Assembly (NCBI GenBank): GCA_003224695.1
Contig: QHZO01000003.1
Coordinates: 7,759 to 49,379 of the forward strand
Direction: 5' to 3'
From: Acidobacteriota bacterium
Lineage (GTDB): Bacteria > Acidobacteriota > Terriglobia > UBA7540
Length of the DNA stretch: 41,621 bases
Shown here: positions 20,150-27,210 of the stretch, piece after piece
How positions within the stretch are numbered: position 1 is the first letter of the stretch
Layout of the letters: each line of letters opens with the position of its first letter
The notes under the pieces: model-generated
The model's database searches: none
Told to the model about the DNA's origin: nothing
Seen by the model: only the letters and a program-made list of their open reading frames with translations
Translations under genes and position numbers: made by a program

Positions 20150-20229
20150 CTTTCAGCCGTCAGCCATCAGTTTTCAGCGAGAAGTTGTGTAGAGTCCTGC
20201 TGAGGACTGACGGCTGAGAGCTGAAGGCT
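20148..20229. repeat. heptamer hairpin A (lpd/lipB junction)
   Basis: AGCTTTCAGCCGTCAGCCATCAGTTTTCAG (20148-20177) vs reverse complement of 20200-20229 AGCCTTCAGCTCTCAGCCGTCAGTCCTCAG, 24/30 identical. Confidence 0.85.
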
Positions 20230-20235
20230 CCTTTC

Positions 20236-20910
20236 ATGCTTTGCTACGTTGAACAACTCGGGGTGGTCCTCTACGCCGAGGGCCTGCGCTTGCAGCGGGA
20301 GAAGGTTGCTGCGCGCAAGGCGGGCGCCATTCCGGACACGCTGCTCTTGCTCGAGCACCCGCACGTCATCACGCTCGGCCGGAATGCGCGCCGCGAGCAT
20401 TTGCTTGCATCCGCCGAAGCGCTCCGGGCGTTAGGGATCGAACTTTTCGAAACGGACCGCGGCGGGGACCTGACGTACCACGGGCCCGGGCAATTGGTCG
20501 GCTACCCGATATTGGACCTGGCCGAGCACCGCCGCGATGTCGCCTGGTACATGCGCTCGCTCGAAGAGGCGCTGATTCGCGTCGCGGCCGATTTCGGCGT
20601 CGAAGCCGCGGGGCTGGCGGGCGCGCCGGGCGTGTGGGTGGGCGAGGCGAAACTTGCCGCCATGGGCGTGCATCTTTCGCGCTGGGTCACCTCGCACGGA
20701 TTCGCGCTGAACGTCAACACGGACCTCGACTATTTTCGTTGGATCGTTCCCTGCGGCCTCGCGGACAAAGGCGTGACGTCGCTCGAAAAGCTTCTCGGCC
20801 GCCGCGTGGAGATCAAAGGCGCAGTCGAAAGTGTGGTCGAGAAGTTTGGTGAGGTGTTTGGAATGGAAATGCGGAGCCGTCAAGGGTTGACAGTCCAAAG
20901 TTCAACGTAG
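20236..20910 (+). CDS. lipB: octanoyl-[ACP]:protein N-octanoyltransferase
   Basis: LLLLEHPHVITLGRNARREHLL, GGDLTYHGPGQLVGYPI, GVWVGEAKLAAMGVHLSRWVTSHGFALNVNTDL, VPCGL. Confidence 0.95.
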   Translation: MLCYVEQLGVVLYAEGLRLQREKVAARKAGAIPDTLLLLEHPHVITLGRNARREHLLASAEALRALGIELFETDRGGDLTYHGPGQLVGYPILDLAEHRRDVAWYMRSLEEALIRVAADFGVEAAGLAGAPGVWVGEAKLAAMGVHLSRWVTSHGFALNVNTDLDYFRWIVPCGLADKGVTSLEKLLGRRVEIKGAVESVVEKFGEVFGMEMRSRQGLTVQSST

Positions 20911-20949
20911 GGCTGTTTCAACTCTCGACTGTCAACTTTCAACTGTCAA
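20887..20949. repeat. heptamer hairpin B (lipB/E1alpha junction)
   Basis: Left TTGACAG TCCAAAG TT...; right AACTCTC GACTGTC AACTTTC AACTGTC AA; arms converge and are partly complementary. Confidence 0.75.
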
Positions 20950-20955
20950 AGTCTT

Positions 20956-21915
20956 GTGAAACTATCCCGCGCACAACTCCACGACATCTACTATTTCCTG
21001 CGCCTTAACCGACGTGTGGACGAGCAGTTGACCAGCCTTTACCGGCAAGGAAAAGTGGTGGGCGGCGTTTATTCGGGCCTGGGGCAGGAGGCGATTTCGG
21101 TTGGAACGGCTTACGCGCTCGAGCGCGAGGACGTGGTCGGGCCGATGATCCGCAATGTCGGGACGCTGCTGGTGCGCGGCTACCGCCCGCGCGACCTGTT
21201 CCTGCAATACATGGCGCGCCGCGACGGCCCCACCGGCGGCCGGGACGCGAACACGCACTTCGGCGACCTCGCCCGAGGCGTCATCGCGCCCATCAGCATG
21301 CTCGGCGAGCTGGTTCCAGTGCTTGCGGGTGCGGGGCTGGCCGCGAAAATCCGCAAAGAGAAGCGCGTGGCGCTGACCTATATCGGCGACGGCGCGTCGA
21401 GCACCACGCCGTGCCACGAAGGCATGAACTTTGCGGCCGTGTTGAAATTGCCGCTCGTCGTTGTGGCGGAAAATAACGGTTGGGCCTACTCGACGCCGGT
21501 TGAGAAGCAGATGGCTATTGAGAACCTTGCTGACCGTGCCCAGGCCTACGGCATGGCTTCCGCAATCGTGGATGGCAACGATGTGCTGGCGGTCTACGAA
21601 GCCACGCGGAAGGCCGGCGAGCTTGCGCGGCGAGGCGGCGGGCCGACGCTCATCGAATGCAAGACCATGCGCATGAAAGGCCACGCCGAGCACGACGACG
21701 CGCGCTATGTCCCGCGTAAAGCGCTCGAAGCCTGGAAGAAGAAGGATCCAATTGAGCGCTTCGAAAAGTATTTGAAAACGAAAAAGCTCATGACTGCGGA
21801 TGAAAAGTCCGCCATCGAAGCGCGCGTTGAAAAGGAAATCCGCGAGGACGTCGAGTTTGCCGAATCGAGTCCGCTCCCCGCGCCTGAAGAAGCCGTGCGG
21901 CCTGCGTGGGCGTAG
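20956..21915 (+). CDS. thiamine-PP-dependent 2-oxoacid dehydrogenase E1 alpha subunit
   Basis: GKVVGGVYSGLGQEAISVGTAYAL, YIGDGASSTTPCHEGMNFAAVLKLPLVVVAENNGWAYSTPVEKQ; GTG start. Confidence 0.92.
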   Translation: MKLSRAQLHDIYYFLRLNRRVDEQLTSLYRQGKVVGGVYSGLGQEAISVGTAYALEREDVVGPMIRNVGTLLVRGYRPRDLFLQYMARRDGPTGGRDANTHFGDLARGVIAPISMLGELVPVLAGAGLAAKIRKEKRVALTYIGDGASSTTPCHEGMNFAAVLKLPLVVVAENNGWAYSTPVEKQMAIENLADRAQAYGMASAIVDGNDVLAVYEATRKAGELARRGGGPTLIECKTMRMKGHAEHDDARYVPRKALEAWKKKDPIERFEKYLKTKKLMTADEKSAIEARVEKEIREDVEFAESSPLPAPEEAVRPAWA

Positions 21916-22007: not shown

Positions 22008-22433
22008 TCAGAAAGGAGGGCGCGCACGCACACTTGGGAATCGCGCGAAGTCACGATCCAGAGTAATCCATTCGCACCCGTGCTCGATGGCCAAAGCGGC
22101 GAACCAAGCGTCCTGAACCAAATTTCCCGCGGCGCGGGTTCGCTGGCACAAATCGATAAAGATAGGCCAATGTCGGGGCCCCGGCTGAACCAGCTGACAG
22201 TTCGCTGGCTCAGTCAGAGCTTGGCAGAAGGCCAAGGCCTCTTCCAGGGGGGTGGGTCGGCCAAAAATGCGTGGGTGTGTGCAGATTCGAATCAGGGAGG
22301 CAAGCACCTGCGGAGAGACACCGTACGCCGATTCGCCGCGGAGCACCGATTGCAACCACTCGCGATGCCGTGCGTGGTCTGGTGCATCTCGCCGGAACGC
22401 GTAAACGAGCACGTTTACATCCGGCAGGATCAC
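22008..22433 (-). CDS. PIN-domain VapC-like toxin
   Basis: MILPDVNVLVYAFRRDAPDHARHREWL...WITLDRDFARFPSV. Confidence 0.9.
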   Translation of the reverse strand: MILPDVNVLVYAFRRDAPDHARHREWLQSVLRGESAYGVSPQVLASLIRICTHPRIFGRPTPLEEALAFCQALTEPANCQLVQPGPRHWPIFIDLCQRTRAAGNLVQDAWFAALAIEHGCEWITLDRDFARFPSVRARPPF

Positions 22434-22672
22434 TTGCGCCCTTCCATGATGTCCAGCAACGAGGCGTTATTACTAAGGTCAACGCCCGGCAGTGTCCCTC
22501 CGCCAACGCTGGACACAGGAAGCTCGATGCGTTTCCGGCGCGAGGGCTTCCGAACCGCGAGAAGGAGGCGCAACCCTTGTTCGATCATCGAGGTCAGTGT
22601 CTCTCCTCGTTTGGCCGCCTCTCGTTTGACTTGCCGGAGAAAGTTGTCGTTGAGACGTACGGTCGTCCTCAT
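22430..22672 (-). CDS. ribbon-helix-helix VapB-like antitoxin
   Basis: MRTTVRLNDNFLRQVKREAAKRGETLTSMIEQGLRLLLA; overlaps the toxin start. Confidence 0.88.
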   Translation of the reverse strand: MRTTVRLNDNFLRQVKREAAKRGETLTSMIEQGLRLLLAVRKPSRRKRIELPVSSVGGGTLPGVDLSNNASLLDIMEGRK

Positions 22673-22806: not shown

Positions 22807-23937
22807 TTGATCATGAGACCAGCCCGACGGAAAACGAAGGGACGATCATCGGCGGCGGGCCGTTCGCCCGATCACCCGATCACCCGATCACCCGATCATT
22901 CGTCCGCCAATTTACCCGATGCCAAGCTCTCCGAGCGGATGCTCTACTACTTGAAGCTGACGCGTGCGGCGGAGGAGCGCATCGAGCGCGTGCTCTACCG
23001 CCAGGGGAAAATTGTGGGCGGGGTTTACGTCGGGCGCGGGCAGGAGGCGATTGCCGTCGGCGCAGCCATCCAGCTTGTCGAGGGCGACGTGGTTTTGCCA
23101 AGCCACCGCGATTTCGCCGCGTTCGTCATTCGCGGCTTCACGCTCAAGGAAATTTTTTGCAATTGGATGGGGCGCGCGAACGGACCCACGCGCGGCCGCG
23201 ACAATACCCTGCACCTTGGCGATATGGGCCGCGGCGTCATCCCCATCATCTCGCATTTGGGGGACACGTGCCCGGTGGCCTGCGGCGTGGCGATGGCGCT
23301 GAAGCAGCGCGGCGAAGGGCGTGTAGCGCTGGTCCATTTCGGCGAGGGCACCACCAGCCGGGGCGACGTCCACGAAGCGATGAACTGGGCGGCGGTGATG
23401 AAGCTGCCCGTGATTTTCATCTGCAACAACAACGCCTATGCTTACTCGACGCCCACCGAGAAGCAATACGCCGTCAAGGACCTCGCCGTGCGCGGCGCGG
23501 CCTACGGCATGCCGGGCGCGAAGGTTGATGGGAATGACGTCCTGGCGGTTTACTCCGCCGTCGCCGAAGCGATCCGCCTGGCTCGGGCAGGACGCGGGCC
23601 GAGTTTCCTGGAGTGCAGAACTTTCCGCATGACGGGCCACTCCGCACACGACATGGCGGAATACGTCCCCGACAAACTCTTCGCTGAATGGCAAGAGAAA
23701 GACCCGATCGGGTTGCTCGAGAGAAAGCTCCTTTCGAGCCGCATATTGACGCGCGAGCGTATCCACGAAATTGAGAAGACCATCGAGAAAGAGATTGACG
23801 ATGCCGTGGCTTTCGCGGATTCGAGCCCGATGCCGGAGGGACCAACGGCGCTCGAGGACGCGTATTGTGGCCCGAAGTGTGGCTGGGAGAAGACTTCCCT
23901 GGTCCCTAGTCCTTCATCCGTGGTTCGAAACAATTGA
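22807..23937 (+). CDS. second thiamine-PP-dependent E1 alpha subunit
   Basis: LKLTRAAEERIERVLYRQGKIVGGVYVGRGQEAIAVGAA, HFGEGTTSRGDVHEAMNWAAVMKLPVIFICNNNAYAYSTPTEKQ; N-terminal start uncertain, passes through a tandem repeat. Confidence 0.9.
   Translation: MIMRPARRKTKGRSSAAGRSPDHPITRSPDHSSANLPDAKLSERMLYYLKLTRAAEERIERVLYRQGKIVGGVYVGRGQEAIAVGAAIQLVEGDVVLPSHRDFAAFVIRGFTLKEIFCNWMGRANGPTRGRDNTLHLGDMGRGVIPIISHLGDTCPVACGVAMALKQRGEGRVALVHFGEGTTSRGDVHEAMNWAAVMKLPVIFICNNNAYAYSTPTEKQYAVKDLAVRGAAYGMPGAKVDGNDVLAVYSAVAEAIRLARAGRGPSFLECRTFRMTGHSAHDMAEYVPDKLFAEWQEKDPIGLLERKLLSSRILTRERIHEIEKTIEKEIDDAVAFADSSPMPEGPTALEDAYCGPKCGWEKTSLVPSPSSVVRNN
22839..22902. repeat. octamer tandem repeat C (CGATCACC x3 + CGATCATT)
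   Basis: CGATCACC at 22869, 22877, 22885 and CGATCATT at 22893; short opposing arm GGACGATCATCGG. Confidence 0.85.
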
Positions 23938-23970
23938 CTACGGACAACCGACCGCGGACGACGGACAAGC
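23900..23970. repeat. heptamer hairpin D (E1alpha'/E1beta junction)
   Basis: Left TGGTCCC TAGTCCT TCATCCG TGGTTCG (23900-23927); right GACTACG GACAACC GACCGCG GACGACG GACAAGC (23936-23970). Confidence 0.8.
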
Positions 23971-23990
23971 GCAGCAGACGAGGCGAATAC

Positions 23991-24965
23991 ATGCCGGTGA
24001 TGACATATCTCGATGCTATCCGCCAGGGCATCTGGGAAGAGATGGAGCGCGACCCATCGGTTTTCCTCCTGGGCGAGGACATTGGCGCTTACGGCGGCGC
24101 GTTCAAAGTGACGGCGGGGATGCTCGAAAAGTTCGGCGCTGAGCGCGTCATAGACACGCCGATTTCGGAATCGGCGATAGTTGGCGCGGCCGTCGGAGCG
24201 GCGCTGATGGGCATGCGCCCGGTCGCCGAAATGCAGTTCATGGACTTCATCTCCTGCGGCTTCGACCAAATCGTGAATATGGCCGCGAAGATCCATTACC
24301 GCTGGGGAGCGAAGGTGCCGCTGGTGATCCGAGGGCCGGCGGGCGCGGGCGTCCACGGCGGGCCGTTCCACTCGCAGTCGAACGAAATGTGGTTTGTACA
24401 CACGCCGGGCCTCAAGGTGGTTGTCCCCGCGACGGCGTACGACGCCAAGGGGCTCATCAAGGCGGCGATCCGCGACGACAACCCGGTGCTTTACTTCGAG
24501 CACAAATTTCTATACCGCCGGATCAAAGACGATGTGCCCGAAGAGGACTATACCGTTGCCATCGGCCAGGCGCGCATCGCGCGAGAGGGGAGCGACTTAA
24601 CGCTCATCACCTATGGGGCGATGGTCTGGGCCGCGCTCGAAGCGGCCGACACGCTGGCGAAAGAGGGCGTGTCCGTCGAGGTCGTTGATTTGCGCTCGCT
24701 CCTGCCCTACGATGAGCAGACGGTGCTCGCAAGCGTGCGAAAGACCAACAAAGTTTTGCTGCTTCACGAGGACACGCGGACCGGCGGCATGGCCGGTGAA
24801 CTCGCGGCGCTGATTGCCGAAACATCTTTTGAAGATTTGGACGGCCCGATCGTCCGCGTCACCGCGCCTGACACGCCGGTGCCTTTTTCGCCGCCGCTCG
24901 AAGAGTATTTTCTCCCGAACGCCCAAAAGGTGGCGGAAGCAGCGCGGAAATTGGCAGCCTACTGA
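23991..24965 (+). CDS. 2-oxoacid dehydrogenase E1 beta subunit
   Basis: MPVMTYLDAIRQGIWEEMERDPSVFLLGEDIGAYGGAFKVTAGM, VDLRSLLPYDEQTVLASVRKT. Confidence 0.93.
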   Translation: MPVMTYLDAIRQGIWEEMERDPSVFLLGEDIGAYGGAFKVTAGMLEKFGAERVIDTPISESAIVGAAVGAALMGMRPVAEMQFMDFISCGFDQIVNMAAKIHYRWGAKVPLVIRGPAGAGVHGGPFHSQSNEMWFVHTPGLKVVVPATAYDAKGLIKAAIRDDNPVLYFEHKFLYRRIKDDVPEEDYTVAIGQARIAREGSDLTLITYGAMVWAALEAADTLAKEGVSVEVVDLRSLLPYDEQTVLASVRKTNKVLLLHEDTRTGGMAGELAALIAETSFEDLDGPIVRVTAPDTPVPFSPPLEEYFLPNAQKVAEAARKLAAY

Positions 24966-24966
24966 G

Positions 24967-25476
24967 AAGTGGCGAGTGGTTAGTGGCAAGTGGCAAGTTG
25001 TGGAAAGTTCTAAGTTTTACGGGCGGAGGGGCAGTTGGCGGAAGGGGAACGGAAAGTTGCAGAAGGACAGAGGAAGGTGAAAAGTTATAAGGATTTACTC
25101 GTCTGGCAAAAGGGCATTTCACTGGTAAAGAAAGTCTACGTTTTGACCCAAAAATATCCCGATCTTGAGAGATTTGGACTGGTTGCTCAAATGCGTCGGG
25201 CATCAGTCTCGATTCCCTCCAATATCGCGGAGGGTCAAGCGCGCCACACACGGAAGGAATTCATTCAATTTCTTTCACATTCGGAAGGCTCTGTCGCAGA
25301 ATTGGAGACTCAGATCGTGCTCAGCCTTGAGTTAGGATATTGCTCGGAGGTGGAAACACAAGGCATCACGGTACTCACGACGGAGCTGAGCAAAATGCTG
25401 GATTCGCTTCGCCGAAAGCTTGAGATGAACGGATGACAGTCTTTGCTTGCCACTGGCCACTAACCACTCGCCACTT
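24967..25476 (+). mobile_element. candidate IVS-like element: four-helix-bundle ORF bracketed by 31-nt heptameric inverted repeats
   Basis: 24967-24997 AAGTGGCGAGTGGTTAGTGGCAAGTGGCAAG; 25446-25476 CTTGCCACTGGCCACTAACCACTCGCCACTT; 30/31 complementary; encloses S23-like ORF. Confidence 0.6.
25077..25436 (+). CDS. four-helix-bundle protein, S23 / 23S rRNA intervening-sequence protein family
   Basis: VKSYKDLLVWQKGISLVKKVYVLTQKYPDLERFGLVAQMRRASVSIPSNIAEGQARHTRKEFIQFLSHSEGSVAELETQIVLSLELGY. Confidence 0.93.
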   Translation: MKSYKDLLVWQKGISLVKKVYVLTQKYPDLERFGLVAQMRRASVSIPSNIAEGQARHTRKEFIQFLSHSEGSVAELETQIVLSLELGYCSEVETQGITVLTTELSKMLDSLRRKLEMNG

Positions 25477-25512
25477 TCTAGTGCTTGCCACTTGCCACTC
25501 GCCACTTGCCAC
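25446..25512. repeat. heptamer array E' upstream of E2
   Basis: TTGCCAC TGGCCAC TAACCAC TCGCCAC TTTCTAG TGC TTGCCAC TTGCCAC TCGCCAC TTGCCAC. Confidence 0.9.
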
Positions 25513-25535
25513 TACTCTGCCGTGGAGGCAGACCC

Positions 25536-26846
25536 ATGCCCACTAACGTCATCATGCCGCAGATGGGAGAGAGCGTCGCGGAAGGCACCGTCACGAAGTG
25601 GCTGAAGAAGGTGGGCGACCGCGTGGAGCGCGATGAGCCGCTGTTTGAGATTTCGACCGACAAGGTGGACGCGGAAATTCCCTCCCCGGCTTCAGGGACA
25701 CTCGCCAAAATCCTGGTCAAAGAGAGCGAAACCGTTGAGGTGAACACCGTGGTCGCGGTGATTGACGGCGAAGGCGCGGCGGCGGCAGCGGCCCCTCCCG
25801 CGGCGCCCGCAAAGGCGGCGAAGCCTGCCGCGGGGCCTGAGGTCGCAGCCGCTGTTACGGCTCCTCCCAAGCCGGAGGCCGCGCCGCCTGTTACGCCCGC
25901 TCCGGGTGGTCGAGCGGCGGCTCCCCCTTCCGCGGGGGAGAAGGTGCGATCCTCGCCGCTCGTCCGGCGCATCGCGCGCGAACACAACGTGGACGTGGCG
26001 CAAATCCCGGGCACAGGCCAGGGCGGCCGCGTCAGCAAGAAAGATATCCTCGCCTATCTGGCGCAGGCGGGGCCCTCTCGAGCGGCCGTGCCTGTCTCAG
26101 ATGTTGAGCGGAAACGGGCCCCGGCGCCCGCCGCCCCTCGCATGGTCTTCAGCGGCCCGACGGAAACAGTCGCCATGACGCCGATGCGTCGGCAAATTGC
26201 CGAGCACATGGCCGTCAGCAAGCGCACCTCGGCGCACGTCACCACGGTTTTCGAAATCGAAATGAGCAAAGTGGTTGAGATGCGCGAGAGGAGCGCCGCG
26301 GAGTTCGAGCGCCGCAACGGATTAAAGCTCACCTACACACCGTTTTTCTTCCGCGCGGCCGTCGAAGCCATTAAGGAATTCCCGATTTTGAATTCTTCGG
26401 TCGAGGGCACGAACATCGTTTACCGGCGCGACGTGAACGTCGGCGTGGCGGTGGCGCTGGAGACCGGCCTGATCGTCCCCGTCATCAAAAACGCCGACGA
26501 AAAGAATTTCCTGGGCATCGCGCGCGCCGTCGAAGACTTGGCCGGCCGGGCCCGCACGAAGCGCCTGAGCGTGGAGGAGGTCCAGGGCGGGACATTCACC
26601 CTCACCAATCCGGGCGTCTTCGGCAGCCTGTTCGGGACGCCCATCATCCATCAGCCCCAGGTCGCGATTCTCGGCGTGGGAGCAATCGAGAAGCGCGCCG
26701 TCATCCGCCACGACGCCATTGCCATCCGGCCGATGGTCTATCTCGCCCTCACCTTCGACCATCGCATTATTGATGGCGCAGTCGCCGACCAGTTCATGGG
26801 GCGCATCAAGTCCGTGCTGGAGAATTGGGATGAGCCGGTGCTGTAG
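25536..26846 (+). CDS. 2-oxoacid dehydrogenase dihydrolipoamide acyltransferase (E2), single lipoyl domain
   Basis: VIMPQMGESVAEGTVTKWLKKVGD...EISTDKVDAEIPSP; E3-binding SSPLVRRIAREHNVDVAQIPGTGQGGRVSKKDI; FDHRIIDGAVADQFM; GGAGG upstream of ATG. Confidence 0.93.
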   Translation: MPTNVIMPQMGESVAEGTVTKWLKKVGDRVERDEPLFEISTDKVDAEIPSPASGTLAKILVKESETVEVNTVVAVIDGEGAAAAAAPPAAPAKAAKPAAGPEVAAAVTAPPKPEAAPPVTPAPGGRAAAPPSAGEKVRSSPLVRRIAREHNVDVAQIPGTGQGGRVSKKDILAYLAQAGPSRAAVPVSDVERKRAPAPAAPRMVFSGPTETVAMTPMRRQIAEHMAVSKRTSAHVTTVFEIEMSKVVEMRERSAAEFERRNGLKLTYTPFFFRAAVEAIKEFPILNSSVEGTNIVYRRDVNVGVAVALETGLIVPVIKNADEKNFLGIARAVEDLAGRARTKRLSVEEVQGGTFTLTNPGVFGSLFGTPIIHQPQVAILGVGAIEKRAVIRHDAIAIRPMVYLALTFDHRIIDGAVADQFMGRIKSVLENWDEPVL

Positions 26847-26848
26847 GG

Positions 26849-26970
26849 CAGAAGTCAGAAGCCAGAAGCCAGAAGTCAGAAGAAAGAATGACGCGGCAGG
26901 CGGCAAACGCCAATTGAATGATCGCAAGATGTGGCTATTCTGACTTCTGACTCCTGACTGCTGACTCCTG
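26849..26970. repeat. heptamer hairpin F (downstream of E2)
   Basis: AGAAGTC AGAAGCC AGAAGCC AGAAGTC AGAAGAA (26850-26884) vs TTCTGAC TTCTGAC TCCTGAC TGCTGAC TCCTG (26938-26970); 28/33 complementary. Confidence 0.88.
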
Positions 26971-27210
26971 TTTCTCTCCCTTCCGAAAAGAGTCGAGCGT
27001 CCAGCCGTCGGGGTCGGTGTGATGGCGCAGGATATAAAAGTTTCCGTCGTCGGCGCGGACTTTGAAGCATTGGTAACCGGAGCCATACCACTGGTCCACA
27101 ACCTCTCGGACTTCATAGGGGCGGCCACCGGCGCTCGCCAACACGAAGCGCCGTGGCCGCTCGTCGGCCTTATATCCTGCGTGACACTCGACGCGAATCT
27201 GGATGGCCAT
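26935..27210 (-). CDS. small conserved-looking hypothetical protein with repeat-encoded C-terminal tail
   Basis: IRVECHAGYKADERPRRFVLASAGGRPYEVREVVDQWYGSGYQCFKVRADDGNFYILRHHTDPDGWTLDSF then KGEKQESAVRSQKSE read from heptamers. Confidence 0.65.
   Translation of the reverse strand: MAIQIRVECHAGYKADERPRRFVLASAGGRPYEVREVVDQWYGSGYQCFKVRADDGNFYILRHHTDPDGWTLDSFRKGEKQESAVRSQKSE

Follow-up and report, generated by a model that had tools for sequence, protein, structure and literature searches.

The window considered here, a stretch of 41,621 nucleotides from an Acidobacteriota bacterium, carries between two genes of a pyruvate/2-oxoacid dehydrogenase operon a small open reading frame (ORF) enclosed by inverted arrays of 7-nt repeats, and elsewhere two heptad hairpins without an ORF. 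The features, in window coordinates, are as follows:

20151..20230, no strand: ORF-less heptad hairpin with TCAGCNN arms, in the intergenic gap preceding a gene at 20236 that looks lipB-like by eye
23934..24965, + strand: E1 beta of pyruvate/2-oxoacid dehydrogenase, upstream operon gene (Pfam Transket_pyr / Transketolase_C)
24967..24997, + strand: left (5') heptad arm, unit AGTGGCR, 4.4 copies; 31/31 identical in the sister genome G001
25077..25436, + strand: ORF of the IVP/S23 four-helix-bundle protein (PF05635, E 2.2e-36; TIGR02436, E 5.8e-34)
25446..25476, - strand: inner right heptad arm, 30/31 against the left arm; absent as such in G001
25482..25513, - strand: outer right heptad arm; core matching the G001 orthologue's right arm at 30/30
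25536..26846, + strand: E2 acyltransferase, downstream operon gene (Pfam 2-oxoacid_dh, Biotin_lipoyl, E3_binding)
26838..26978, no strand: ORF-less heptad hairpin with AGAAGTC / GACTTCT arms and a 56-nt loop, 3' of E2

The left arm begins 1 nt past the E1beta stop, as the TGA occupies 24963-24965. It is complementary at 30 of 31 positions to the inner right arm, which is of equal length and lies 448 nt away, and both arms show 7-nt periodicity. A third array (25482-25513) repeats the right arm in direct orientation (28/32), and the GGAGG ribosome site of E2 (25524-25528; ATG at 25536-25538) lies outside the element. The enclosed ORF runs in the direction of the operon and matches both PF05635 (E 2e-36; 124.7 bits, cutoff 33.8) and TIGR02436 (116.6 bits, cutoff 24), confirming the original observation of 31-nt heptameric inverted arms around an S23/IVP ORF. 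The RNA strand of the element folds with the arms paired in the minimum free energy structure (-211.7 kcal/mol, z = -4.8). A search of Rfam with the window and 20 further loci of the same genome gave no match; profile searches identified no transposase in the element, and a target-site duplication could not be resolved at the available divergence.

The ORF is open from a TTG at 25035, and the GTG at 25077 is the more likely start, judged by eye from the position of an SD-like stretch and the N-termini of the family. A structural homologue, 2GSC (E 5e-25), comprises five chains, as does a second IVP homologue, 2RLD, and 2GSC has been described as a homopentameric toroid (PMC4990558). It may be inferred that arrays of about 4-6 units would fit a ring of this kind that reads units in tandem. 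In comparison with the G001 orthologue the element protein shows a dN of 0.128 and a dS of about 2, and Xanthomonas IVP orthologues of one type have dN/dS ratios of about 0.06-0.13; these low values therefore indicate that the protein is maintained under purifying selection. The bAvd and DivGenRetAVD profiles match the element protein below cutoff, and no IVP homologue was found in phage records.

The E1beta-E2 junction varies considerably among relatives, all members of one family. In the genome of the window (G000) and in G001, G011, and G024 it holds orthologous IVPs (69-75% identity) whose arms are of the AGTGGC type, whereas G020 has a different IVP (38% identity), with arms of the GTCGACA/GTTGAGA type. 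An ORF-less hairpin in G009 is built of the G020 unit, G017, G016, and G021 contain other ORF-less heptad hairpins, and G004 an octad ORF-less hairpin; in G010, G023, G012, and G015 the junction is short and array-free. A picture in which all relatives bear the ORF at this site without repeats, which would have refuted the original prediction, is thus not what was found. Between G000 and G001 the region is 76% identical, with a fully conserved left arm (31/31) and a match of 30/30 between the outer right arm of G000 and the right arm of G001. The inner right arm of G000, which carries the left arm's variant unit, has no G001 counterpart, and by inference may derive from a copy of that left arm. 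Since the outer array is common to the sister species, the inner, better-pairing arm appears to be the additional one, and the outer array is probably the ancestral end; the earlier suggestion that the outer copy is a leftover or duplicated end is therefore reversed. No recent jump is documented, as changes of occupancy were seen only between genera, at about 70-80% identity.

Inverted arms are near-universal among PF05635 ORFs. The genome of the window (4.6 Mb, 87% complete) contains 23 PF05635 matches, and within 300-bp flanks an inverted match score of at least 14 was reached at 19 of these 23 loci (28 for the element between E1beta and E2), against just 8 of 506 mismatched left and right flanks of the same genome. 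For 29 relatives, the same score was reached at 26 of 29 IVP loci and in 47 of 812 mismatched pairs. With refined ORF positions, arms of period 7 or 8 were present at 82 of 92 PF05635 loci, drawn from the genome of the window and from relatives of the same family and class. A broad survey, restricted to one genome per species and comprising 80 named loci, covered Acidobacteriota, Proteobacteria, Planctomycetes, Bacteroidota, Clostridia, Chloroflexi, Elusimicrobia, candidate phyla, and one archaeon; 61 of the 80 loci scored at least 14 (mismatched pairs, 1%), and the single archaeal locus lacked arms. The survey pattern is biased to the canonical subfamily, and some failures represent contig ends or decayed arms. 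Arms were also present at all 12 plasmid IVP loci examined, 11 of them cyanobacterial. The expected enrichment of heptad inverted repeats around homologous ORFs was therefore borne out. The mismatched-pair controls (1-6%) exclude random inverted repeats as an explanation. The possibility that arrays surround any gene was likewise rejected: 7 of 274 ordinary ORFs in the same genome were bracketed, 4 of which proved to be IVPs missed by the filter, leaving about 3 of 270 (about 1%), and the etfB-, nuoI-, and glcF-like cases (by eye) reflect neighbouring arrays. No literature joining PF05635 to heptad arrays was found beyond Coxiella, with preprints and most subscription journals outside the coverage of the search. 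Individual loci show some unusual features. A Planctomycetota locus (L243) has giant ends, with arms of 198 nt (176 matching) and the unit GTGGACG; the flank of one IVP locus (L174, G017:C144) has a 10-nt unit (AGTCAAGACC) rather than one of 7 or 8; and on a Nostoc edaphicum plasmid (L348, 343-3348) a TAGGGAG-armed IVP lies between the genes for ribonucleotide reductase beta and alpha and is antisense to each of them.

The heptamer unit differs locus by locus, and it follows the protein. Across 125 IVP loci, protein identity correlates with heptamer similarity (Mantel r 0.29, not equalled in 2000 permutations, 0/2000), and the result is the same (0/2000) when only pairs below 50% protein identity are considered; the base after AG changes 35 times on the protein tree, the minimum in shuffles being 51. 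Among 195 pairs with at least 60% protein identity, 165 have no common neighbouring gene, and 136 of these 165 (82%) share an identical heptamer, against a baseline of 16%. ORF and unit therefore co-occur at unrelated sites, which supports the earlier proposal of element-like behaviour outside rRNA. For instance, proteins related to one another are accompanied by AGGATTC-type units in Acidobacteriota, Chitinophaga, and Betaproteobacteria. A single register, (C/T)-A-G-N-N-N-N, fits all units, with G at 98% and an information content of 3.24 bits, where column-shuffled units give 2.13 +- 0.06 (maximum 2.30). Judged by eye, the units published for Coxiella (GACAGAT) and Beggiatoaceae (TAACTGA, as reverse complement) also fit, as does that of Xanthomonas with G replacing A. 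The order of units in the left and right arms matches slightly above shuffled units at 7 of 41 loci, and strict unit-by-unit copying of arms is not claimed as a general rule because this signal is weak. The idea that period 7 versus 8 tracks the protein tree was unconvincing (14 changes; null mean 17.3, minimum 14).

The closest known counterparts are the intervening sequences (IVSs) of 23S rRNA with an S23p ORF in Coxiella and Leptospira, which resemble the present elements in protein family, size (~430 nt), and a terminal inverted repeat of ~28-31 bp. In Coxiella, the IVS has tandem GACAGAT heptamers and a 28-bp terminal stem, is excised by RNase III, and its protein is probably not made (PMC4990558). 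The long terminal stem that characterizes such IVSs is present here (30/31 arms, paired in the predicted fold), whereas location in an rRNA gene is not, since the element lies between E1beta and E2 in a protein operon. The present elements further differ in occurring in many copies per genome, in having a unit matched to the protein, and in being accompanied by dispersed ORF-less arrays. The paired arms and the Coxiella precedent (PMC4990558) might suggest that the hairpin is merely an RNase III substrate splitting the operon mRNA, with arms kept for cleavage and an incidental protein. Such a purely RNA-processed IVS seems very improbable to us, as the protein is maintained (dN/dS about 0.06-0.13) and the unit follows it, which cleavage alone would not require.

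Arrays without an ORF are widespread. In a 424-kb sample of the genome, under a criterion of at least 21 of 28 matches, 65 arrays of period 7, 7 of period 8, and 1 of period 9 were counted, and none of periods 5, 6, or 10-13. When IVP flanks were excluded, 48 arrays remained, of which 39 were intergenic in a sample covered to 83% by genes. They thereby qualify as dispersed heptamer repeats of the STRR-like kind, that is, tandem 7-nt units at mainly intergenic sites, and they outnumber the IVP elements. Their units resemble the IVP arms of the same genome (similarity 0.713 vs 0.643; 0/200 random sets of other phyla) and are closer to them than to 199 of 200 sets from relatives. In 25 genomes, array density correlates with IVP copies per Mb (Spearman 0.68; within the family 0.80, or 0.76 with the genome of the window left out), and five family genomes with 0-2 IVPs have zero arrays in 29-40 kb apiece. 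G001, however, is IVP-rich and yet has few arrays in a 35-kb sample, and G032 behaves likewise. Because samples are small and the species related, the correlation is supporting rather than decisive. Dispersed heptamer repeats have been recognized in several bacteria, including the cyanobacterial STRR. Published examples include GGGAATC in Xanthomonas and GGGGA(C/T)T in Nostoc (PMC4692102), as well as TAACTGA in Beggiatoaceae, cyanobacteria, and Bacteroidetes (PMC4679880). They share with the present arrays tandem 7-nt units, intergenic sites, and partly inverted pairs; neither paper proposes an agent, whereas a PF05635 gene is put forward here.

If PF05635 is the agent, then a resident Xanthomonas gene should bear GGGAATC-type arms. 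Rehm et al. described dispersed GGGAATC arrays in Xanthomonas, with 70 inverted pairs in X. campestris, and no general association with mobile elements (PMC4692102). The prediction held: inverted arms of GGGAAT/GGGATT type with a score of at least 12 flank the IVP gene in 22 of 28 loci, the others comprising 1 short 13-nt version, 4 with GGGACC arms, and 1 without arms. Genomes with the gene contain 43-449 occurrences of a three-unit pattern (overlapping counts), versus 0, 14, 21, 41, and 83 where the gene is missing or degenerate (the 83 in G068, which has no IVP gene, speak against the proposal) and 35 where just the GGGACC type was found; the reversed pattern is absent throughout these genomes (0). 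The difference between genomes with and without the gene (Mann-Whitney p 1e-4) is uncorrected for phylogeny, and the relatedness of the species weakens both this and the density correlation. By gene names assigned by eye, the GGGAAT/GGGATT type lies between accB and accC and the GGGACC type between carA and carB, so that both types are inserted within an operon. Two divergent IVP alleles occur between accB and accC (L289-L299 vs L301-L314, dN about 0.4), with GGGAAT and GGGATT arms, and this junction appears to hold either allele, as the flanks of L289, L301, and L307 align at 87-91%. A clean empty site between carA and carB was sought without success, the species without IVP carrying other sequence of 467-627 nt.

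These data also bear on whether the protein is a mere passenger, with IVP ORFs simply surviving in hairpins while the arrays are made and spread by an unrelated host process such as slippage, template switching, or another transposase. The excess of ORF-less arrays over IVP elements and the lack of a catalytic domain in IVP would be compatible with this. However, such a process does not readily account for protein-heptamer matching at unrelated sites, array density that tracks IVP number, the exclusive period of 7 or 8, the rarity of bracketed ordinary genes, and the absence of arrays around the genome's two Y1 transposases. The specificity test has already weakened this explanation, which appears improbable.

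Within operons, placement is strongly oriented. Both neighbours run in the same direction as the IVP ORF in 68 cases and in the opposite direction in 10 (p 1e-11); of 103 left neighbours, 85 are co-directional with it, and the array starts at a median of 5 nt past the upstream stop. By inference, the protein probably depends on read-through transcription. Sense orientation and a site between a stop codon and the next ribosome site would also suit a regulon rather than a transposon, in which IVP is a TRAP-like ring-shaped RNA-binding regulator and the arrays are its sites in operon mRNAs, born by slippage and kept by selection; the arms conserved between G000 and G001 in a region of 76% identity, the purifying selection, and the pentameric homologue 2GSC point the same way. 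Nevertheless, up to 23 copies per genome with differing units, cross-phylum horizontal spread, and replacement or loss at a single site look selfish, and the array-bearing host operons have no evident common function. We therefore regard a regulon as unlikely, though it cannot be dismissed.

A mobile-element reading invites comparison with two other systems. In RAYT-REP/REPIN systems, a single protein gene is flanked by a hairpin repeat that is also dispersed elsewhere without the gene. The present elements are alike in combining one gene with many repeats that lack it, but their product is a PF05635 four-helix bundle instead of a Y1 HUH transposase, and their ends are tandem heptads instead of a single palindrome; the defining RAYT feature, a Y1 gene flanked by repeats, is therefore not met, and the two Y1_Tnp genes of the genome lie elsewhere without flanking arrays. 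Avd of diversity-generating retroelements has a homologous four-helix-bundle fold, and its homology to IVP has been noted (PMC10053308), whereas the element contains no reverse transcriptase or template/variable repeats. As an RVT_1 search of the 87% complete genome found none and the Y1 genes lack flanking arrays, reverse transcriptase and Y1 transposase were rejected as the obvious motor.

We lean, with moderate confidence, toward a minimal IVS-like selfish element that has locus-specific inverted heptamer arrays as ends, carries one PF05635 gene, and resides between operon genes. The computed evidence for this consists of the architecture, the protein-heptamer matching, the unit at unrelated sites, the array correlation, and purifying selection; against it stand the lack of a transposase or reverse transcriptase in the element and of an identifiable target-site duplication. 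The four-helix-bundle protein probably recognizes its cognate array, an inference for which there are no binding data. According to the proposed mechanism, an element lying in sense after a stop codon and before the ribosome site of the next gene would be expressed by read-through, and IVP, pentameric in solved homologues, would recognize arrays of its cognate unit on the arm hairpin, possibly with one unit per subunit. Such recognition could drive the spread or maintenance of ORF-less arrays in trans, comparable to RAYT protein acting on REPs. In RNA, the arms would form a ~30-bp duplex, for which RNase III cutting as in 23S IVSs may be expected, and copying or insertion, for which the element itself encodes no enzyme, probably relies on a host function. 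A wider hypothesis, to which we give even chances, is that PF05635 proteins are specificity factors of bacteria-wide minimal mobile elements, in which each clade reads its own (C/T)AGNNNN array and borrows host machinery, thereby having created the dispersed heptamers, with 23S IVSs as members that landed in rRNA. Overall, the evidence points to the PF05635 element as a minimal mobile element that has been overlooked and from which the scattered, unexplained 7-letter repeats of many bacterial genomes likely stem. This joins two open puzzles, the role of S23/IVP proteins and the origin of heptamer arrays across bacterial genomes, and because protein clade and heptamer match in a code-like way, both can be tested together. 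If the protein drives the spread, a mobile element would exist whose sole product is a small four-helix bundle.

Genes annotated as 23S_rRNA_IVP have been reported in cas loci (PMC3936711). Three such loci were re-examined (cas10-IVP-Cmr3 and two cas6-IVP-cas4), and arms with 7/8-nt units bracket the IVP in each; these IVPs hence look like element insertions and not Cas parts. The IVP elements within these CRISPR-Cas operons lie at 1456-1885 in L355 and around 1500-1900 in L353 and L357. The presence of IVP genes inside CRISPR-Cas, acc, car, and pyruvate dehydrogenase operons thereby finds a simple explanation, as insertions rather than pathway components.

Several minor observations concern the rest of the window. 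A probable PIN-domain toxin/antitoxin pair, so judged from the look of its sequence (DVNVLVYAF...), occupies 22008-22672 on the - strand, and its upstream 80-aa ORF has no Pfam match. An octamer array (CCCGATCA x4) at 22849-22911 falls at the start of the listed E1alpha ORF (TTG 22807); translation probably begins further downstream, which would make the array intergenic. A heptad array of TCAACTN units (20913-20953) separates the lipB-like gene (20236-20910) from a second E1alpha-like gene at 20956. Outside the window, clustered heptad arrays at 8500-8760 of L065 lie inside an open frame, so that the 7-nt units there encode a 7-residue repeat.
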